A stretch of DNA of 64,000 nucleotides. It comes from Craspedostauros australis. Taxonomy: Eukaryota > Bacillariophyta > Bacillariophyceae > Mastogloiales > Achnanthaceae. The notes under the pieces were generated by a model that saw nothing but the letters and a program-made list of their open reading frames with translations, searched no databases and was not told where the DNA came from. Of this stretch, positions 33,455 to 48,189 are shown in pieces. Positions within the stretch are counted from its first letter, which is position 1. Each line of letters begins with the position of its first letter. Location of the stretch: NCBI GenBank assembly GCA_026770025.1, contig JAMXDE010000013.1:806001-870000 (forward strand), written 5' to 3'. Made by a program: the position numbers and the translations under genes.

Positions 33455-33458
33455 GTAA
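33455..33458. repeat. Left target-site duplication (GTAA) of the DNA transposon
   Basis: GTAA directly precedes the terminal inverted repeat and is repeated directly after the other end at 39526-39529. Confidence 0.75.
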
Positions 33459-33614
33459 GAGCCCCCCGAGTGAGTCGACCTGCACTCCGTTATTGGCCTC
33501 CAGAAATTTTCTCTCCTACATACTAACCAACCACATATTTGTAATCCTTGTAGGTCTAATACAAATAATTAACCGATGGATTTTTGAGTTAGATCCTATT
33601 TTAAGTTTTATGGA
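33459..33614 (+). repeat. Left terminal inverted repeat of the DNA transposon
   Basis: This is the inverted match of 39370-39525: identical for the first 39 bases, diverged in the middle, and then almost identical over the inner block containing AATTAACCGATGGATTTT. Confidence 0.93.
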
Positions 33615-35291
33615 CCGATGGATATGCGCAATTTTCGATCTCTTTCGGGTTTCAGCCTTTGACAACCGACTACATCGATCCAATTTAACCCTTTGCTGTT
33701 CTTTGTTTCAGCGACATTGTTCTGATTTTGAATTGTTTAGTCTCTTTTTCAGGTGTTCGGATGGGACCACCCAACAGTCCATCCACGATAGCACTAGTTG
33801 TAGAATGTTGGGGGAAGCGGTGAATCCGCTTTTACATTCATTCCATCATGTGCTTATCCAATCCGTCATCGACGTCACGCAACTAGATGCTTCGTCATGA
33901 AACACCAATGATATCACGATGCGAAACATCGTCAGGTTTGCTTCTTCGTGGCGAAGTGGTTGAGTGGGGTTGGTACTCCTCGAGTGTTTTGTGTCGTGGT
34001 CTTTTTGGACAGTCGAAACAACTGGAGGTAAATCTCCACATCCCCCAACATGTGAGGCTGGTCGAGAGCGGCAAACTCGACACACCAAGATGAAAATGGA
34101 GCCACACCAAAAAAATACCACAATGGCCGTCGAACGGTATGCTTGGCGCCGCACCAACCAGCCGGCCAATTCAAGATCCAAGCACATCGCCGTCATCTCC
34201 ACGCAGCGTTTGGTGGGTGGACGAACGGAGGCGGGAAGAGGGGTTGATTTGGGGCCGTCGTAGGCCCCAGAAATACGGCCACAATTTGGCTCCAAATCGG
34301 CTCGTTGGTTTTGGCCTGTGTACGCCACACACAGGTCATATCAGCGCCTACAGATGGGCAAGACGCCTCAGGAAGGGCAAGAAGAAGGCCCCCTCGAAGT
34401 TCGAGGCTCGCAGAGCACCGGGAAGGTCTCCGCGCGGAGAGAAAGGTGGTTTTTGGGAGTTTTGGTTGGGGCTCGCCTGGCACCAGTCGCGTGGCTTTGG
34501 CGGTGAGGGGCGATGGGAAGACGCCCCTCAATCGCCAAGGTACCCATACAAGATGCGTGCGGCATCATTTGAAGATGCACGTCGTGAAGCGTGCGCCACA
34601 GAGACGGTGTACAAGAGGCTGCAGCCGACCATATCTGCAGAATGGTCGTTGTTGGTGGGAGCAAAAAATGCCCAACCACATCATCATATGGAGGTGTACC
34701 GCGTCAGCCATGCACTCCCAGCCCATTCTGGATGCATCTGCCTGTCGCCATGGAGCGTGGTAATGCACGAGGGGCACAAGGAGGGGCTGCAAGGATCGTA
34801 TGGATGAGGTATGGATCCGTATCCATACCGCATCCGGATTGAAAATGATTTTTCGAAATCGCTCTGTTTCAGTGTGTGGCTGCATTGCTGCATGCAGAGC
34901 CGATGTCTGAGGCCAACCTTCATGGAGCGGATAGCTGGGGGGTATGCAGAGCGAATGATCTGATCAGTTTGCTGAAATGCAAGGATGATGATGATGATCA
35001 TGTGTGCTCATTGGAGGGCAACATTGTGCCATCGACCATTTTTTTTTTTCCGAATCCACCACACAACACACAGGAAACCAACATGACTTCCAAAATATTT
35101 TCAATACTCATTTAACTTCGATATTCTGATCAACAGATAGCCAGGCGTCTGAGCGCAATGTTTAGTTTTAATTTTAAGCGATGTGTTGTTGAGATATGGC
35201 ATGACAAGCAGATATTGGATGTGCTTTTTGGATGGCCTCTAGACTCGTTTTAGTAGCATGGTCTGCCACCCACAAAACTCCACAACTAGTG
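33615..35291. other. Non-coding left arm of the DNA transposon
   Basis: This 1.7-kb interval lies between the left TIR and the 3' end of the transposase-like gene. An ATG ORF at 34139-34807 (222 codons) has biased, low-complexity composition and no recognisable domain, so I do not call it. A T-run lies at 35040-35050. Confidence 0.5.
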
Positions 35292-38200
35292 TTATCGCGG
35301 CAGTTCATGCCCATCACAATTTTCCGTCTCATCATCCAACACAGCCTCACTTTCTGCATTGGCCTTCATTGTGTGAGCATCACACCACATCTGATGATTC
35401 AGCTCCTCTTCTTCTCTCTGCAACTCTTCTTCTCTTCGTTCCTCCTCTGTTACAGCTGGCGCATTGTGGGTCGCCATGATTGCAGATGCTGTTGCTTTGT
35501 TTGTTGGGTTGGTGTTGGTGTTGGTTTCTGCCTTGATGAGGGCAGCCTGCTTCTTTTCTTTGCGTTGTTTGGCGTTGTACGCTGCAGACAGCGATGCTTT
35601 CACCCGCATGGGATTAGCGTGCAGTTGTACGTACCAGTCAGTTTTCGTTCTTTCGTTGGCCATCAATTGTTCGTGTGCTTCATGTTCGGACGGTCTGTTT
35701 TTCGAGTCCTTCGCGGACGCTTCACTGATGTCCTTCAATTTGTCCGCGATGTAGTCTGGTAGTTTCGCGTTGATCCGTACGGTTTTGCTCGCCCAGCCTG
35801 GCACTGCGAGTGGTGGGTGTTCGGTTTCTGCGGTCTTGTCCTTCAACTCCGCGGTGCGGTCGGTCGGCACGCATCCTTGTACGTCTTGGATCGCTTTGCC
35901 GAACACCAGCCCCTTGCTCTCTGCCGCTGTGCGCCCGAGTTTTCGCGTCTTGTCCGTCTTCCTGAACGATTCGGACGTTATCGGCAGCTTGTCGGACTTG
36001 TGTGTGTGAACATCGGCAACGCCCAGCTGGTTGATGATCCAGCCGTCCCATTCAGCGCTCTTCACAACGACGTCTTCCGTGATGCCAGATGCAGCCACCA
36101 ATCGCGCCTGGTCATCATCATACTTCACCTCGTGAGTTTGACGCACCTGTTGCCCGTTCGCGCGGAATCGTCGTTTTGGTGCGCCAGGAAGCGTCGTGAT
36201 GTTGCCTTCGAGGGTCTCTGCGTTGACCAGTACCGTTGTCGTACCTGCGATGTTACCGGCTTGGAGCGCGAGGAAGAGTTGGAACGGGGTCTTGATGTCC
36301 TTGCCACTTTGCACGTATTTTCGCAGTACACGGGTGATGTACGCGAAGTGGGTGTCCAGCATGCTCTTACCGGTTTGGGCCTCCGTGTAAATCCATGCGA
36401 TGATTTTGGCGGCCTTTCGTGTTGCAAGGTTCTTGTTGAGTACCGATGTGATGAGCGCGATGTGCTCGTGACTGGCGAAACAACACGCGTTATCGCTCTG
36501 TAGGATGATCTCAGTCACGGATGGGTGAATGTCTTTGACCTTTTTTTGCACAATGTCAAGCAGTGCACCAACTTGAAGAGTGTCTTGTGTCGGTCTTCCA
36601 CCGACCACAATGTCAATGAACCGATAAGTAAAAATGTCGTTGCGACACGTGATGACCATCGCCCCAAGCAGTGACATTCCCTTTTTCCCCCAATATTCTT
36701 GTTGGGCTTCGCTTTGGCCTGTTGGTAGAATTTTTTGCTTATGGTCAAGTACCACATAGGCTCTTTCAGGCTTATCATTGAGTTCGGATTGATAAAAAGC
36801 GATTTGTCGGAATTGCACTTTGGCACGCACTTTGTGAGCCATGTAATTAGTGATTTCATCAGCGAATCCCGGCGCCGCCGCAAGCATTGATTGCAATTCG
36901 TCCTTGTGTTCTGCGAGTTCGTTGTCCTTAAGCATTTCGACGAATGGGACAAAACGATCATTCACAAATCGCATTGCTGATCCACAACGGTTGCATACTT
37001 TACGCGGTTGTTCGTTTGTTGTGACCACTGGAATGTCATTTGTGATGGTTGGCGTGTCGCTTTTGAGAGTGGTCTTCTTGCGTTTGTGCTTGTTGGTGCG
37101 TGCTTTGCGTTGGTTGGTTGAGGTGGTTGTTGCCTTCTTCTTCTTCTCCTTTTTGGTGGTGAGAGCGAACGCGGCCGAATGCATTGGATCGTCGCACTGA
37201 AGCTGCATGTGGGAGGCGGTGAACTCCCATTTGAGGAACACAACAAGCAGTTCGAGTGCATTCAAGAGGGAATCGGCCGTGCGCACATGTGGAGAGATGA
37301 CGTCATTGGGCTCGTCGTTGTCGTTGTCGTTGTCGCTCTCGTCATTGGCATCGTTTTGTTCCTCTCCGTCTGTTTCATACTTAGCCTTCAGGAGGTCTAC
37401 TAGGCGCGAAATTGCCTGTTTGAGTTTCTCCGTCGCCATCCAGAAGTAACTCTCGAAGGAAGAAAGGCCCGTCTTGATCTTACTTTTGCGTGTGAGCAGG
37501 TTAGTCATGAGGGTGAATGCAGGCATTCCAACTGGGTTGTTAGTCGTTGACGCGTACATGTCGAATAGTTGTTCGATTGACGTGCTTCCACGATCGAAGA
37601 CGGGGACATTTTCAAATTTGATGCCTCCGAACTGTACCGTGTGACTCAGGCCTGCCTTGTACGTAGCGGTGGTCATGAGAAATGATGCCACACCAGACAG
37701 ATTGCAAGCACGCACACGATACTGGAGAACCTTTGGCGGGATGAGTTCGCCACGGCTGAACATGTCATAGGCGCGTCGCAATGTTGTTAATTGACTCCGG
37801 GTGATTGCAGTGCGTGCAGGCTCGACACGAATACGCTGTTCCTCTGACATGGTCTCCAGGTGACGAGAGAGGATTGCGGAGCTGTTAGTGAATGACGTAG
37901 ATGCAGCGAGGACAGCTCTAGCTGCGATAGCCAGTGTCTGTTCCCCCCCAACACATAGGGTGTACAGATTTGGACCGAGTGCAGGCGGCGGTAGATCCGC
38001 GCGCGCGCGGACAAACTCCACGACCTGCTGCATCTGGCGTGTTGGCAACTCCTCCTGGGGGAGCAAGACACCCCAGAGCGCAGAAGCCACGTTGACCCAC
38101 ACACGTGTTACATTCCACCATGTGTGCCTGTCGCAATTCCAGCCAAGCACGAATCCCTTGGGAGGCATGGAAGTAAACACGTTCATGTCGAAGTGATCCG

Positions 38201-38885
38201 TGAGCAACTCCATCACGCGAATCACAGCAGGGCGCCTCCAGTTCTCCCCCTCTTGCGGATCATACCCGAACTGACCTCCTCTCCTGTTCCTGCTGGCACG
38301 CGTTCCTTCCCCCCTGTCGTTGTCGTCGTAGGTGGTGTCGCTGTCATTGGAGGTGTCTGCATAGCCACCAGCTACAACAGCATTGCAGCGACGAGGGAGC
38401 CTCGCTGGTGGGGCAGGCTCGACAGGTGGTGCAACGTCAGGCACAGCAGGGGGTGGCGCGTTCACGATAACGCTCACCACTGCTCCATCGCCGACACCTC
38501 GTCCCTCGGATCGCACCCTGACGTTGGAGTCGTCGAAGACGCCTCCGTTGTCATCGAGGATGTGAACGAACACATGCAGCACGCGAGCGTGCGCATCCGT
38601 ACTGTTCGGGACGAGGCTGCCATCCGCTGCATGCATCGGCTCCACATCAATCACTTGCGTGATGGTGGTTGGCTTCTGGACTGCAGGGGATGGCTTGTCG
38701 GGCAACAGTTGCTCCGCGGTAGGGAGCAAGTTTCCCTTGGAGTCAACAGGAGGAGCAGACACAGGGTAAGCAGAGCGCGGTTTCTTACAGGGGGAGGGGT
38801 TGGCATCCTTGGCCTTGGCGGTGGTGGAGAGAGGCATGTTGTAGTTGTTGGTGTAGGGTATAGTTGATACTTGGTTTGATGTCAT
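35292..38885 (-). CDS. Putative DDE/D transposase of an unassigned family (1197 aa)
   Basis: Numbered from ATG 38885, the N-terminal about 220 residues are disordered and acidic or proline-rich. A helical region follows (about 220-520). Then come a possible zinc site (Cys564-x4-His, then CNRCG at about 631-635), a Lys-rich stretch between these, and an RNase H-like core: AYVVLDHKQK (Asp714), EYWGKKGMSLLGA, QDTLQVGALL, EIILQSDNACC (Asp798) and YTEAQTGKSMLD (Glu835, Asp844). The order of these blocks recalls uncharacterised animal proteins with SDNAGCYH and GK-CDR motifs, as I remember them. The C-terminus is charged and coiled (EERREEELQREEEEL). Position inside TIRs with a target duplication supports a transposase. 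A second ATG at 38837 is possible. The ORF is uninterrupted, so the element may be recent. Confidence 0.72.
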   Translation of the reverse strand: MTSNQVSTIPYTNNYNMPLSTTAKAKDANPSPCKKPRSAYPVSAPPVDSKGNLLPTAEQLLPDKPSPAVQKPTTITQVIDVEPMHAADGSLVPNSTDAHARVLHVFVHILDDNGGVFDDSNVRVRSEGRGVGDGAVVSVIVNAPPPAVPDVAPPVEPAPPARLPRRCNAVVAGGYADTSNDSDTTYDDNDRGEGTRASRNRRGGQFGYDPQEGENWRRPAVIRVMELLTDHFDMNVFTSMPPKGFVLGWNCDRHTWWNVTRVWVNVASALWGVLLPQEELPTRQMQQVVEFVRARADLPPPALGPNLYTLCVGGEQTLAIAARAVLAASTSFTNSSAILSRHLETMSEEQRIRVEPARTAITRSQLTTLRRAYDMFSRGELIPPKVLQYRVRACNLSGVASFLMTTATYKAGLSHTVQFGGIKFENVPVFDRGSTSIEQLFDMYASTTNNPVGMPAFTLMTNLLTRKSKIKTGLSSFESYFWMATEKLKQAISRLVDLLKAKYETDGEEQNDANDESDNDNDNDEPNDVISPHVRTADSLLNALELLVVFLKWEFTASHMQLQCDDPMHSAAFALTTKKEKKKKATTTSTNQRKARTNKHKRKKTTLKSDTPTITNDIPVVTTNEQPRKVCNRCGSAMRFVNDRFVPFVEMLKDNELAEHKDELQSMLAAAPGFADEITNYMAHKVRAKVQFRQIAFYQSELNDKPERAYVVLDHKQKILPTGQSEAQQEYWGKKGMSLLGAMVITCRNDIFTYRFIDIVVGGRPTQDTLQVGALLDIVQKKVKDIHPSVTEIILQSDNACCFASHEHIALITSVLNKNLATRKAAKIIAWIYTEAQTGKSMLDTHFAYITRVLRKYVQSGKDIKTPFQLFLALQAGNIAGTTTVLVNAETLEGNITTLPGAPKRRFRANGQQVRQTHEVKYDDDQARLVAASGITEDVVVKSAEWDGWIINQLGVADVHTHKSDKLPITSESFRKTDKTRKLGRTAAESKGLVFGKAIQDVQGCVPTDRTAELKDKTAETEHPPLAVPGWASKTVRINAKLPDYIADKLKDISEASAKDSKNRPSEHEAHEQLMANERTKTDWYVQLHANPMRVKASLSAAYNAKQRKEKKQAALIKAETNTNTNPTNKATASAIMATHNAPAVTEEERREEELQREEEELNHQMWCDAHTMKANAESEAVLDDETENCDGHELPR

Positions 38886-38950
38886 GAACTGCACTGGTAT
38901 GAGACGAAGTGACGACGGAGAGCATACAATGCAAGGTCGACCATTTGTTG

Positions 38951-38968
38951 ACAACAACAACAACAACA

Positions 38969-39003
<35 letters not shown>

Positions 39004-39004
39004 A
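38951..39004. repeat. (CAA)n-(CTA)n microsatellite
   Basis: Seven or so CAA units run directly into about eleven CTA units. The repeat lies just upstream of the transposase-like start codon, so it would be in the leader or promoter of that gene. Confidence 0.95.
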
Positions 39005-39369
39005 CTAATAGGGCGAGCACAAGCATGGAACACAACAGCGAGTGCGCATGGCATTGGCGAGGAAAGTTGTGAAATGGAGCGAAAGAGTGGCGATGATTTG
39101 CGGAATTGTGAGCGGATGGCGATGATGTTGGATGTGTGATGTGTTTTGTGTGATGTGTTTTGTGTGATGTGTTTTGTGACGATCAAAATGTGAGATCATG
39201 TGGCGCAGGCTAACGTGTATTTAACGCGTACCAAACGAACGACAATCCCGGCGTCTATTCCATGACTGACTGCCTCATGATAAATGCATCGGAACAGCAT
39301 GGAACCTTCTGAAAAACAACAAGTAGTTTCACGGGGTCGACCCATACGACTTTATCATATTTTTGACTA

Positions 39370-39525
39370 TCCATAAAACTTAAAATAGGATCTAACTAAA
39401 AAATCCATCGGTTAATTATTTATATGGAGACTACGAGGATTATGAATATGTGCTTGGTTTGGATATCGAAGACAAATTTTATAGATGCCAATAACGGAGT
39501 GCAGGTCGACTCACTCGGGGGGCTC
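39370..39525 (-). repeat. Right terminal inverted repeat of the DNA transposon
   Basis: This is the inverted match of 33459-33614, ending on the plus strand in CTCGGGGGGCTC and followed by the GTAA target duplication. Confidence 0.93.
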
Positions 39526-39529
39526 GTAA
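39526..39529. repeat. Right target-site duplication (GTAA) of the DNA transposon
   Basis: GTAA is identical to 33455-33458 and directly follows the right TIR. Confidence 0.75.
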
Positions 39530-39872
39530 TATTTCCAACGGCCACGAGTGCAGCTGCAGTCGCAGCAGTCATCCCCGGTTACCTTTCTGGGCAGACCAGC
39601 TCGTTTGTATCGGGGACACCCGGCAAAAAGCAACGGAAACGAAAATCGACTAGTACGACTAATTCGACACCCAAGAACGATTTTGTCACTCAGACACGAG
39701 AAAGCCACATGCGACGTTTTGACATCGATGAAGAACAAGTCTTCCTTCGAAGAACTTATGGAGGCATCCTGTTGGTCCTACTTCGGATAAACACAGCGAG
39801 GCAACGATGCAGCTCGCCGGCTTGATCGAGTCCCGTCAGTTAAGAAACCATGCAGTTCGACATTCTAAATAT

Positions 39873-40070
39873 TTCGAATGACGGCTATTTAAATCAAATG
39901 ACGGCTATTTGAATCGAGTGACGGCTATTTAAATCTAATGACGGCTATTTAAGTCGAGTCGCGGCTATTTGAATCGAATGACGGCTATTTAAATCAAATG
40001 ACGGCTATTTAAGTCGAGTCGCGGCTATTTGAATCGAGTGACGGCTATTTGAGTCGAACGGCGGCTATTT
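39873..40070. repeat. 20-bp tandem array, 10 copies
   Basis: The core CGGCTATTT occurs at 39882 and then every 20 bases to 40062 with no change of spacing. The unit is approximately ATGACGGCTATTTRARTCRA; the positions outside CGGCTATTT vary. Confidence 0.97.
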
Positions 40071-40534
40071 TATTCGCAGTGCTTTCTACTCGTGATCCAA
40101 GTTGACAAGTTGGGAAATTAATCAAGCCAGGTAAATGCGCCTGGTCTCCCAACGAAACCACAAATTGATGGCTCTTCGCTGCTCTGTTCTGCTCTCAAAG
40201 AATCACAACAGAGACGGGTGTGCGTTTGGAGTGTTGTCATCACCGTTCAAATTTCATTGCTATCTTATAAATGTGAAGCCTTGCCAAGTCGAAAAATTGA
40301 ATGTTAGGGAAGCCAATGCAAGATGGACTAGACACCTTCATCGCAGCGTTGAACTTCGCATGAGTGTTGATGAGCGTTGACCGATTGCCAAGGTTGAGCT
40401 TCCTGTGTTGCTTGGTGTGGGTGAGCGGTGGTTGATGGCCGGCTGTTGCGTTTTGTGGGGTGTGAGGGAGTGATCTAATTACTAAAATAGTGGTGGAGAC
40501 GTATCCCGTGAAGGCAACAGATGACTAACTAAAT

Positions 40535-40659
40535 AAGTCGAATGACGGCTATTAAAATCTAATGACGGCTATTTGAGTCGAATGACGGCTATTTAAATCT
40601 AATGACGGCTATTTGAGTCGAGTGACGGCTATTTGAGTCGAACGACGGCTATTAAAATC
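40535..40659. repeat. 20-bp tandem array, 6 copies (second block)
   Basis: Same unit as 39873-40070, with CGGCTATT at 40546 and then every 20 bases to 40646. The block is 464 bases from the first and is not in phase with it. Confidence 0.96.
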
Positions 40660-46536: not shown

Positions 46537-48189
46537 TTACTTCTGCACGCCCATCTCCTCATCGGCATCAGCCTCGGAGCTCTGGTTCTCCTCGTCCTGG
46601 TTCAGCTTGTTCATGGCGGCAGTCTCCATGCGAAGGGCAGACTCGAAGACGGCGGCATCCTCCTCGTTGCTGCAGGCGTTGATCTCCTCACGCAGACTCT
46701 TGATGTTGGACAGGACGCGCTCGCGACGGACGGAGTACGACTCGTTCTGTGCGGCCAAAGCCTTCTGGAGCTCGAGGTACTCGCGTGGGACGGCGGTGGA
46801 ACCAGCCTCACCGACAAGCACGTTGGTTCCCAAGTGCATGTTGCGGTTGCTCTGGTGATCTGGCTTCATGCCGGCGGCGCGCTCCTCTGGGGTACCGATG
46901 TACACCTCATCGAGCTGGAAGCCAGAGACGGCCTTGTGAATGGAGGCAAGGACCCAGGCTCCAGAGCAGATACCGGTGGCTTCCAACAACAGACAGAACT
47001 GGAGGAAGATGTAGACGATTGGGTTGGAAAGGAAGGCGATTGGGAAGACGGATGCAACCAGCTGCCATGTGATGGAGGCGATGATGGTGGTGATGAGGGC
47101 TCCAAGAAGTCCGGTGTTGAAGAATTCCTGGGTGCTGTCAGAGACTCCGAAGATGTTCTCGCCGGTTCCGACCTCGACATCGAGGGTGGTGACACGGGCG
47201 ATGATGAAGAAGCACATGGTGACGCAGATCTGACGTCCGATCATGAATCCTGGAAGGTTGCGTCCGTCACCGCGGAAGAGGAGCTCGCAGGTCTTGCGGG
47301 CCATTGGGTGGTCTCCACGGTCCTCCTTTGGAAGCTTGGCGACGGCGAAGAAGGCGATCTGCATACCCTCGAGCATACCGACGATGGACATGAAGAGGAA
47401 GAAGAGGATGACGGCGACTCCGTTTGGCACTCCGGCCCACATGGTGGTCTTTCCATCGAAGAGGGCGACGAGGGTGACGGCCATGGCGTAGCACAGGATG
47501 GCGAGGGAGATGAGGATGCGTCCCCAGTAGAAGAGGTTCTGGGCACCGTCGCGTGGTGGTTCCTTGGACTCGATTTCCTTGCCGGAGGCCCAGACGAAGA
47601 ACATCTGGACGAGGTAGCACGAATGCAGAAGTCCGGAGAACTCGATGGCGAGGGCGACGTAGAGGGTGAAGACGGCGAAGAAGTTGTTGATGTAGTCAAG
47701 CATGCAGAGGGAGGCGTTGACTTGGGAGTTGAGCTGTCCGGCTTGGGCGGTCATGAGGATCATGGCGGCTCCGGATCCGAGGAAGATCTGGATGATGATG
47801 TCTGGGAGTCCGAAGACCTCGGCATCGGCGAGCGGGGCACCGCACTGGTTGATGGTGAAGACCATGAGGAGGACCATGAACTGACGTCCCATGAGGTAGC
47901 GGTCGAGGTTGTCACCCTTGTGGGCGAGGGAGGTGCACTGGTGGCTGGTTGGGTGGGATTCGACGTAGAGGTCACGGTCGACTGGTGGGAGACCGACGAG
48001 GGAACCCTGTCCTCCCTCAACCATGTTGAGCCACACGAGGGCCGTGATCATGACGACCAAGGCGACCACTGGGTGGACCTCGGACGAGACCTTGGTCTGC
48101 TCATTGAAGATGAGTCCGCAGACGATGGTGATCGAGAAGATGAGGAGTCCGGTGGAGTACACCGACTTGACGAGCTGAACGGGATCCAT
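46537..48189 (-). CDS. SIT: Silicon transporter (550 aa)
   Basis: This is a plasma-membrane transporter that takes up silicic acid, with Na+ coupling in marine diatoms, for frustule formation. The start at 48189 (MDPVQLVKSVYSTGLLIFS) is typical of diatom SITs. The duplicated diagnostic motifs are present: EGGQ (residues 58-61) and GRQ (101-103) in the first half, EGMQ (274-277) and GRQ (318-320) in the second. About ten hydrophobic segments span residues 12-450. A C-terminal coiled coil follows (about 470-540, EYLELQKALAAQ...LREEINA), also typical of the family. Length matches the usual 540-560. An upstream ATG at 48429 would add 80 Ser/Asn-rich residues and is rejected. The leader just before the ATG is (CAAA)-rich. 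Codon use is strongly biased to C-ending codons, as expected for a highly expressed gene. Confidence 0.97.
   Translation of the reverse strand: MDPVQLVKSVYSTGLLIFSITIVCGLIFNEQTKVSSEVHPVVALVVMITALVWLNMVEGGQGSLVGLPPVDRDLYVESHPTSHQCTSLAHKGDNLDRYLMGRQFMVLLMVFTINQCGAPLADAEVFGLPDIIIQIFLGSGAAMILMTAQAGQLNSQVNASLCMLDYINNFFAVFTLYVALAIEFSGLLHSCYLVQMFFVWASGKEIESKEPPRDGAQNLFYWGRILISLAILCYAMAVTLVALFDGKTTMWAGVPNGVAVILFFLFMSIVGMLEGMQIAFFAVAKLPKEDRGDHPMARKTCELLFRGDGRNLPGFMIGRQICVTMCFFIIARVTTLDVEVGTGENIFGVSDSTQEFFNTGLLGALITTIIASITWQLVASVFPIAFLSNPIVYIFLQFCLLLEATGICSGAWVLASIHKAVSGFQLDEVYIGTPEERAAGMKPDHQSNRNMHLGTNVLVGEAGSTAVPREYLELQKALAAQNESYSVRRERVLSNIKSLREEINACSNEEDAAVFESALRMETAAMNKLNQDEENQSSEADADEEMGVQK

Follow-up and report, generated by a model that had tools for sequence, protein, structure and literature searches.

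A large cut-and-paste transposon of the diatom Craspedostauros australis with TA-centred 4-bp target duplications and a putative DDD transposase

The 64,000-nucleotide stretch of the Craspedostauros australis genome analysed here (assembly GCA_026770025.1, contig JAMXDE010000013.1, positions 806,001 to 870,000; the window) contains a 6067-bp transposable element at positions 33459–39525. Inverted-repeat detection and end alignment place its 156-bp terminal inverted repeats (TIRs) at 33459–33614 (left, gene-distal, plus strand) and 39370–39525 (right, gene-proximal, minus strand). The two are identical at 135 of 156 positions, including all of the outermost 39 bases, and unstranded GTAA copies flank the element on both sides, at 33455–33458 and 39526–39529. 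As detected, the inverted-repeat arms (33456–33614 and 39370–39528) are 159 nt long and 86% complementary, overlapping the duplication by 3 bases. An earlier examination made without database searches, the sequence-only reading, had described the 39 identical outer bases, the GTAA on either side and a single long open reading frame (ORF), and all three hold.

The ORF, which we assign to a transposase, runs on the minus strand at 35292–38885, uninterrupted for 1197 codons from an ATG at 38885. Translation more probably begins at Met17 (position 38837; 1181 codons), because all 10 aligned rows have Met there, whereas just 1 of 9 sister copies has it at residue 1; counter to this, a copy from a second subfamily (L161, see below) shows a gap opposite Met17, its frame having a nearby Met (TMSS). 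The gene-distal internal segment, 33615–35291 (unstranded), holds no convincing second gene, as an excess of third-position substitutions was not steady across the 10 copies compared. A local excess at 34509–34658 is present in six of these copies (L061, L062, L015, L034, L036 and L038) and absent from the other four; it falls in the frame of a plus-strand ORF, 34139–34807, on the strand opposite to the transposase. A small plus-strand exon is possible at 34509–34658.

Several lines of evidence place this element in a family of mobile copies. First, its ends recur throughout the host genome assembly (74.8 Mb, 90 contigs). The end pattern GAGCCCCCCGAGTGAGTCGA, with at most 2 mismatches, occurs 79 times in forward and 76 times in reverse orientation, and the looser pattern GAGCCN5AGTGAGTCGA 141 and 135 times; the reversed control of the former and the control of the latter matched nowhere in either orientation. 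The left 156-mer itself gave 42 reported matches in this genome (40 of 296 candidates scored). Spacing was judged among the matches listed, which comprise the first 100 places for each pattern. Among these, 66 of the 100 places for GAGCCCCCCGAGTGAGTCGA make 33 pairs spaced 6.00–6.11 kb, gaps of 6.7–20 kb also occur, at least two of them owing to a copy nested within another copy (C9), and the shortest pair, found with the looser pattern, spans 4.6 kb.

Second, the copies are flanked by precise target duplications. Our sample comprised 37 end pairs, namely the 33 listed pairs of about 6 kb and 4 pairs with GATCAG-type ends, wider-spaced pairs being left out. An exact 4-bp duplication is present in 36 of the 37, against a chance expectation of about 1 in 256 for each, and none extends to 5 bp. 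All 36 read NTAN, with TA at the centre: ATAT (6), CTAG and TTAT (5 and 5), CTAT (4), TTAG (3), GTAA, ATAA, ATAG, GTAT and TTAA (2 each), and GTAG, TTAC and ATAC (1 each). A 38th pair, that of L161, has a GTAT duplication. A nested copy also supplies an empty site: its flanks, joined through one ATAT, align to the intact ends of other copies over 97 columns, of which 83 are identical and 1 is a gap. The copies at L117/L118 (C9:1067394–1073450) and L085 (C44:388568) are inserted within or directly beside the ends of family members.

Third, many copies are nearly identical and retain open frames. Across the 5.7 kb nearest the gene-proximal end, the window copy shares 5710 of 5718 aligned bases with copy L010, with 14 gap columns, and 5664 of 5717 with copy L012, with 16 gap columns; the window copy, L010 and L011 encode an identical protein. 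When the catalytic block of L161 (see below) served as query, all of the 139 candidates scored, out of 363, matched, and 98 of these 139 copies fall within open frames 1150 codons long or longer. The near identity of copies, the occurrence of one and the same protein in separate copies and the many open frames suggest a young, large family of more than 100 copies that is probably still mobile. The sequence-only reading had called the element a cut-and-paste type of transposon, and had named several copies with precise 4-bp duplications and a conserved core as its support; the copies in the host genome show all of these.

The second subfamily is represented by L161. This element is 4635 bp long, with TIRs identical at 140 of 150 positions, an ORF that occupies most of its interior and 273 bp only downstream of that ORF; it holds little beyond its ends and the transposase gene. 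The L161 protein is 57% identical to the window protein over 1122 aligned columns, with 78% identity in residues 701–890, 43–66% in the other blocks of residues 17–1110 and 37% in the tail. Because the 1.7-kb segment 33615–35291 has no equally long counterpart in L161 and no clear coding signal, it is probably dispensable, the transposase gene alone sufficing. That gene is under purifying selection, as indicated by ratios of nonsynonymous to synonymous substitution (dN/dS) of 0.22–0.34 for the whole window ORF in nine comparisons with other copies. These results bear on the idea that the long gene is a passenger in an element moved by another enzyme, for which the one opening is that the activity of the gene product is itself deduced. 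Both subfamilies carry this gene inside their ends, and it accounts for most of L161, an element whose ends have GAGCC and GTGAGTCGACC in common with those of the window element; the gene is under selection, and no other coding segment is convincing. We therefore regard a passenger as highly improbable. The very large gene probably encodes the element's own cutting enzyme, and the element is probably autonomous.

Within the protein, constraint and conservation point to residues 701–890 (36216–36785, minus strand) as a putative RNase H-like catalytic block, with dN/dS of 0.04–0.21 in the nine comparisons. The motifs VVLD, LQSDNACC and EAQTGKSMLD lie at the residues where the sequence-only reading had placed them. 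The proposed first and second catalytic residues are D714 (36744–36746) and D798 (36492–36494), and the proposed third is D844 (36354–36356), with E835 (36381–36383) as its alternative, all on the minus strand; D714, E835 and D844 are present in all 11 copies compared, D798 in 10 of the 11, and L161 has all four. By a crude measure of strand propensity, the block consists of a strand (YVVLD) leading to D714, two further strands, a strand leading to D798 (IILQSD) and a strand (KIIAWIYTE) leading to E835 or D844, the latter in the segment after it. This succession, together with the order of the motifs, supports the RNase H-like arrangement suggested earlier and would be that of an RNase H-like transposase. 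In known RNase H folds the third acid is located in the helix that follows the last strand, a place that would correspond to the residues after KIIAWIYTE, and for this reason D844 is clearly the likelier third acid.

Residues 564–634 (36984–37196, minus strand) hold the possible Cys/His zinc site already suspected from sequence, split by a basic linker. Its C564, H569, C631 and C634 are conserved in all 11 compared copies and in the 57%-identical L161 and could bind zinc. In the N-terminal half, residues 211–390 (37716–38255, minus strand) diverge fast in L061 and L062 and might, tentatively, be a candidate end-binding domain. Distances between TIRs track those of the N-terminal half, with correlations of 0.74–0.89 for residues 17–390 against 0.42–0.61 for residues 620–890, in 31 of 34 sequences (L020 and L024 dropped, their end not being located, and L161 excluded), a set that counts the window copy twice because L009 is the identical locus. 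As distance along the DNA confounds this comparison, the co-variation is a hint only that TIRs follow the N-terminal half.

We read the element as an autonomous, recently active cut-and-paste diatom transposon with a putative DDD transposase (D714, D798 and probably D844), and we put the probability of this reading at about 0.9. In the mechanism that we propose, a single protein of approximately 1181–1197 amino acids would bind the 156-bp ends through its N-terminal half, pair them, and then cut and join DNA at an RNase H-like DDD site (D714, D798, probably D844), which would excise the element. The target would be joined to both ends at positions staggered by 4 bp, with TA in the middle, and filling of the gaps would produce the NTAN duplication.

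A number of observations weigh against this account. The protein is without credible homology to any profile model or solved structure: searches of Pfam (best E 0.14, weak names, taken as chance), NCBIfam, PHROGs and the PDB (3ssr_B, E 0.26, and 9x3j_A, E 0.12 and in the tail region, both taken as chance) gave no credible match. The end pair L043/L044 (C1:2668996 and 2675037) is mismatched, GTAT against CTAG, although both are NTAN, as could be expected from recombination between two copies. The window copy's own empty site was not found, its joined flanks matching no uninterrupted place in the genome, and mobility is read from the sequences of copies. Residues 391–500 (37386–37715, minus strand; dN/dS 0.00–0.21 in nine comparisons) are constrained as strongly as the proposed catalytic block, without explanation. 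The helix expected around D844, which follows the last strand, has no clear prediction by the crude propensity method, and the conservation of both E835 and D844 leaves two candidates for the third acid. Finally, L062 (G000:C1:1974894–1980944) carries D798N in an open frame of 1170 codons, and so would have been mobilised in trans or mutated after insertion. D798N was rejected as a subfamily trait: it is found in L062 alone, L122–L124 of the same batch have Asp, and L119–L121 do not reach or show the site.

Relatives were also sought outside the profile and structure databases. Phage and plasmid collections held no credible relative, and neither did viral and prokaryote contigs, scanned with short peptide or DNA patterns matched exactly, an approach blind to distant relatives; viral pattern matches taken as candidate relatives (L060, L125–L158) proved unrelated by tblastn. 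Animal and algal genomes are scarce or absent in the contig collections scanned, and because the host genome is the only eukaryotic collection searched, these negatives say little about algal or animal relatives. A literature search of the licensed part of PubMed Central found no paper describing the element.

The sequence-only reading could not fit the element to a named superfamily and had proposed a search against Repbase and Pfam. Pfam returned no credible family. The reading missed Sola, a poorly known superfamily whose description matches the features that could be compared; that the element fits no named superfamily is thus not shown. Sola elements are described as encoding a DDD transposase and making 4-bp duplications, with TIRs 11–1124 bp long and a size mostly of 2–9 kb (PMC10741241), and Sola2 duplications are described as AT-rich, for example ATAT (PMC3627910). 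Sola transposons are named from the diatom Cyclotella cryptica (PMC7466962), and Sola-1 and Sola-2 from the brown alga Ectocarpus (PMC12477816). The window element likewise has 4-bp duplications (36 of 37 pairs, NTAN), TIRs of 156 bp and a length of 6067 bp; D714, D798 and D844 are conserved, yet E835 is conserved as well. The likeness thus extends to an AT-rich 4-bp duplication, long TIRs, a length of 6 kb, a large protein with a deduced D-D-D order and occurrence in stramenopiles. A difference is the strict NTAN target of the window element, with its outer bases free; the catalytic spacing proposed for it is DD45D.

The comparison with Sola is one of descriptions. A reconstructed Sola2-type stretch matches DUF7869, which we take to be a Sola group, and DUF7869 has no match to the window protein. 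A DUF7869 search of the host genome gave no match either, but its controls matched nowhere, so absence is not shown. The element resembles Sola by description and may belong there; we consider true membership, in one of Sola1–3, evenly balanced.

The other placement to be weighed, a plausible lead from the sequence-only reading, is an unnamed superfamily shared with large uncharacterised animal proteins that bear SDNAGCYH and GKxxCDR blocks. A reconstructed 167-residue animal-type stretch, written out after the diatom protein had been seen and taken as a lead only, aligns to residues 713–882 across the three motif blocks with 44 of 172 columns identical (26%; E 4e-13 for one comparison), which is not independent evidence; this stretch has no credible Pfam family. 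Another reconstructed stretch, which has an SDGA motif, failed to align (best E 0.57), and no relatives turned up when viral and prokaryote contigs were scanned by pattern. A link to the animal proteins is compatible with Sola membership, as these proteins may be Sola too. We hold the shared unnamed superfamily to be a tentative possibility. Its fuller form would unite the diatom family and many uncharacterised animal proteins in one superfamily of DDD enzymes of more than 1100 residues, with a split zinc site, NTAN 4-bp duplications and near-identical, probably living copies in the diatom, and this we consider rather unlikely.

Four-base duplications are also generated by piggyBac, Kolobok and Ginger, and by Chapaev, which raises the reading that the element is a very derived member of one of these. 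PiggyBac and Kolobok are TTAA-specific (KolobokP excepted), whereas TTAA accounts for 2 of the 36 duplications here, and the window protein has no domain matching either. Ginger1 and Ginger2 share the 4-bp duplication and long TIRs with the window element but have TGTNR ends, CCGG or RTATAY targets and a Gypsy-type integrase, in contrast to GAGCC ends and no integrase match here. Residues 798–844 contain neither C/DxxH nor CxxC, and no Pfam match is credible. With either D844 or E835 as the last acid, the Kolobok C/DxxH motif between the second D and the last acid is absent, as are the C(2)C and H(3-4)H motifs of CMC/EnSpm–Transib between D798 and D844. We judge a derived member of these groups improbable. 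In Tc1/mariner the target is TA, as at the centre of every exact duplication here, but the duplication is the 2-bp TA rather than 4 bp, its enzymes are much smaller than the window protein and no Pfam match was found.

Beyond the right end of the element the window holds other features. A 20-bp tandem repeat resembling AATGACGGCTATTTAAATCG forms two arrays, at 39874–40070 and 40534–40659. Close to the right flank, about 67 bp (approximately 39613–39679) recur at 38 other places listed, with 87–100% identity (40 of 56 candidates scored), and represent another repeat family. A silicon transporter gene lies at 46576–48189 on the minus strand (PF03842, 827 bits). PF03842 has 88 matches in the host genome, of which 32 span at least 480 of the 513 profile positions and 25 score 811–831 bits; in the control, 1 of 14 genomes matched, below the cut-off. 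The silicon transporter set of this host appears unusually large; the presence of many such genes suits a diatom, although it would suit other silicifying algae as well. One silicon transporter copy sits 458 bp from another copy of the transposon (C2).

The kind of element is itself ordinary; its superfamily, which may be Sola or the unnamed group, is possibly the important point. Because the family is likely to be still mobile, end binding, excision and NTAN targeting should be directly assayable, which would make it a practical system for studying a group of transposases without a solved relative in the searches made. It may also offer an insertion tool for diatoms. If the link to animal proteins is true, the family would provide a test of how one superfamily came to be common to algae and animals.

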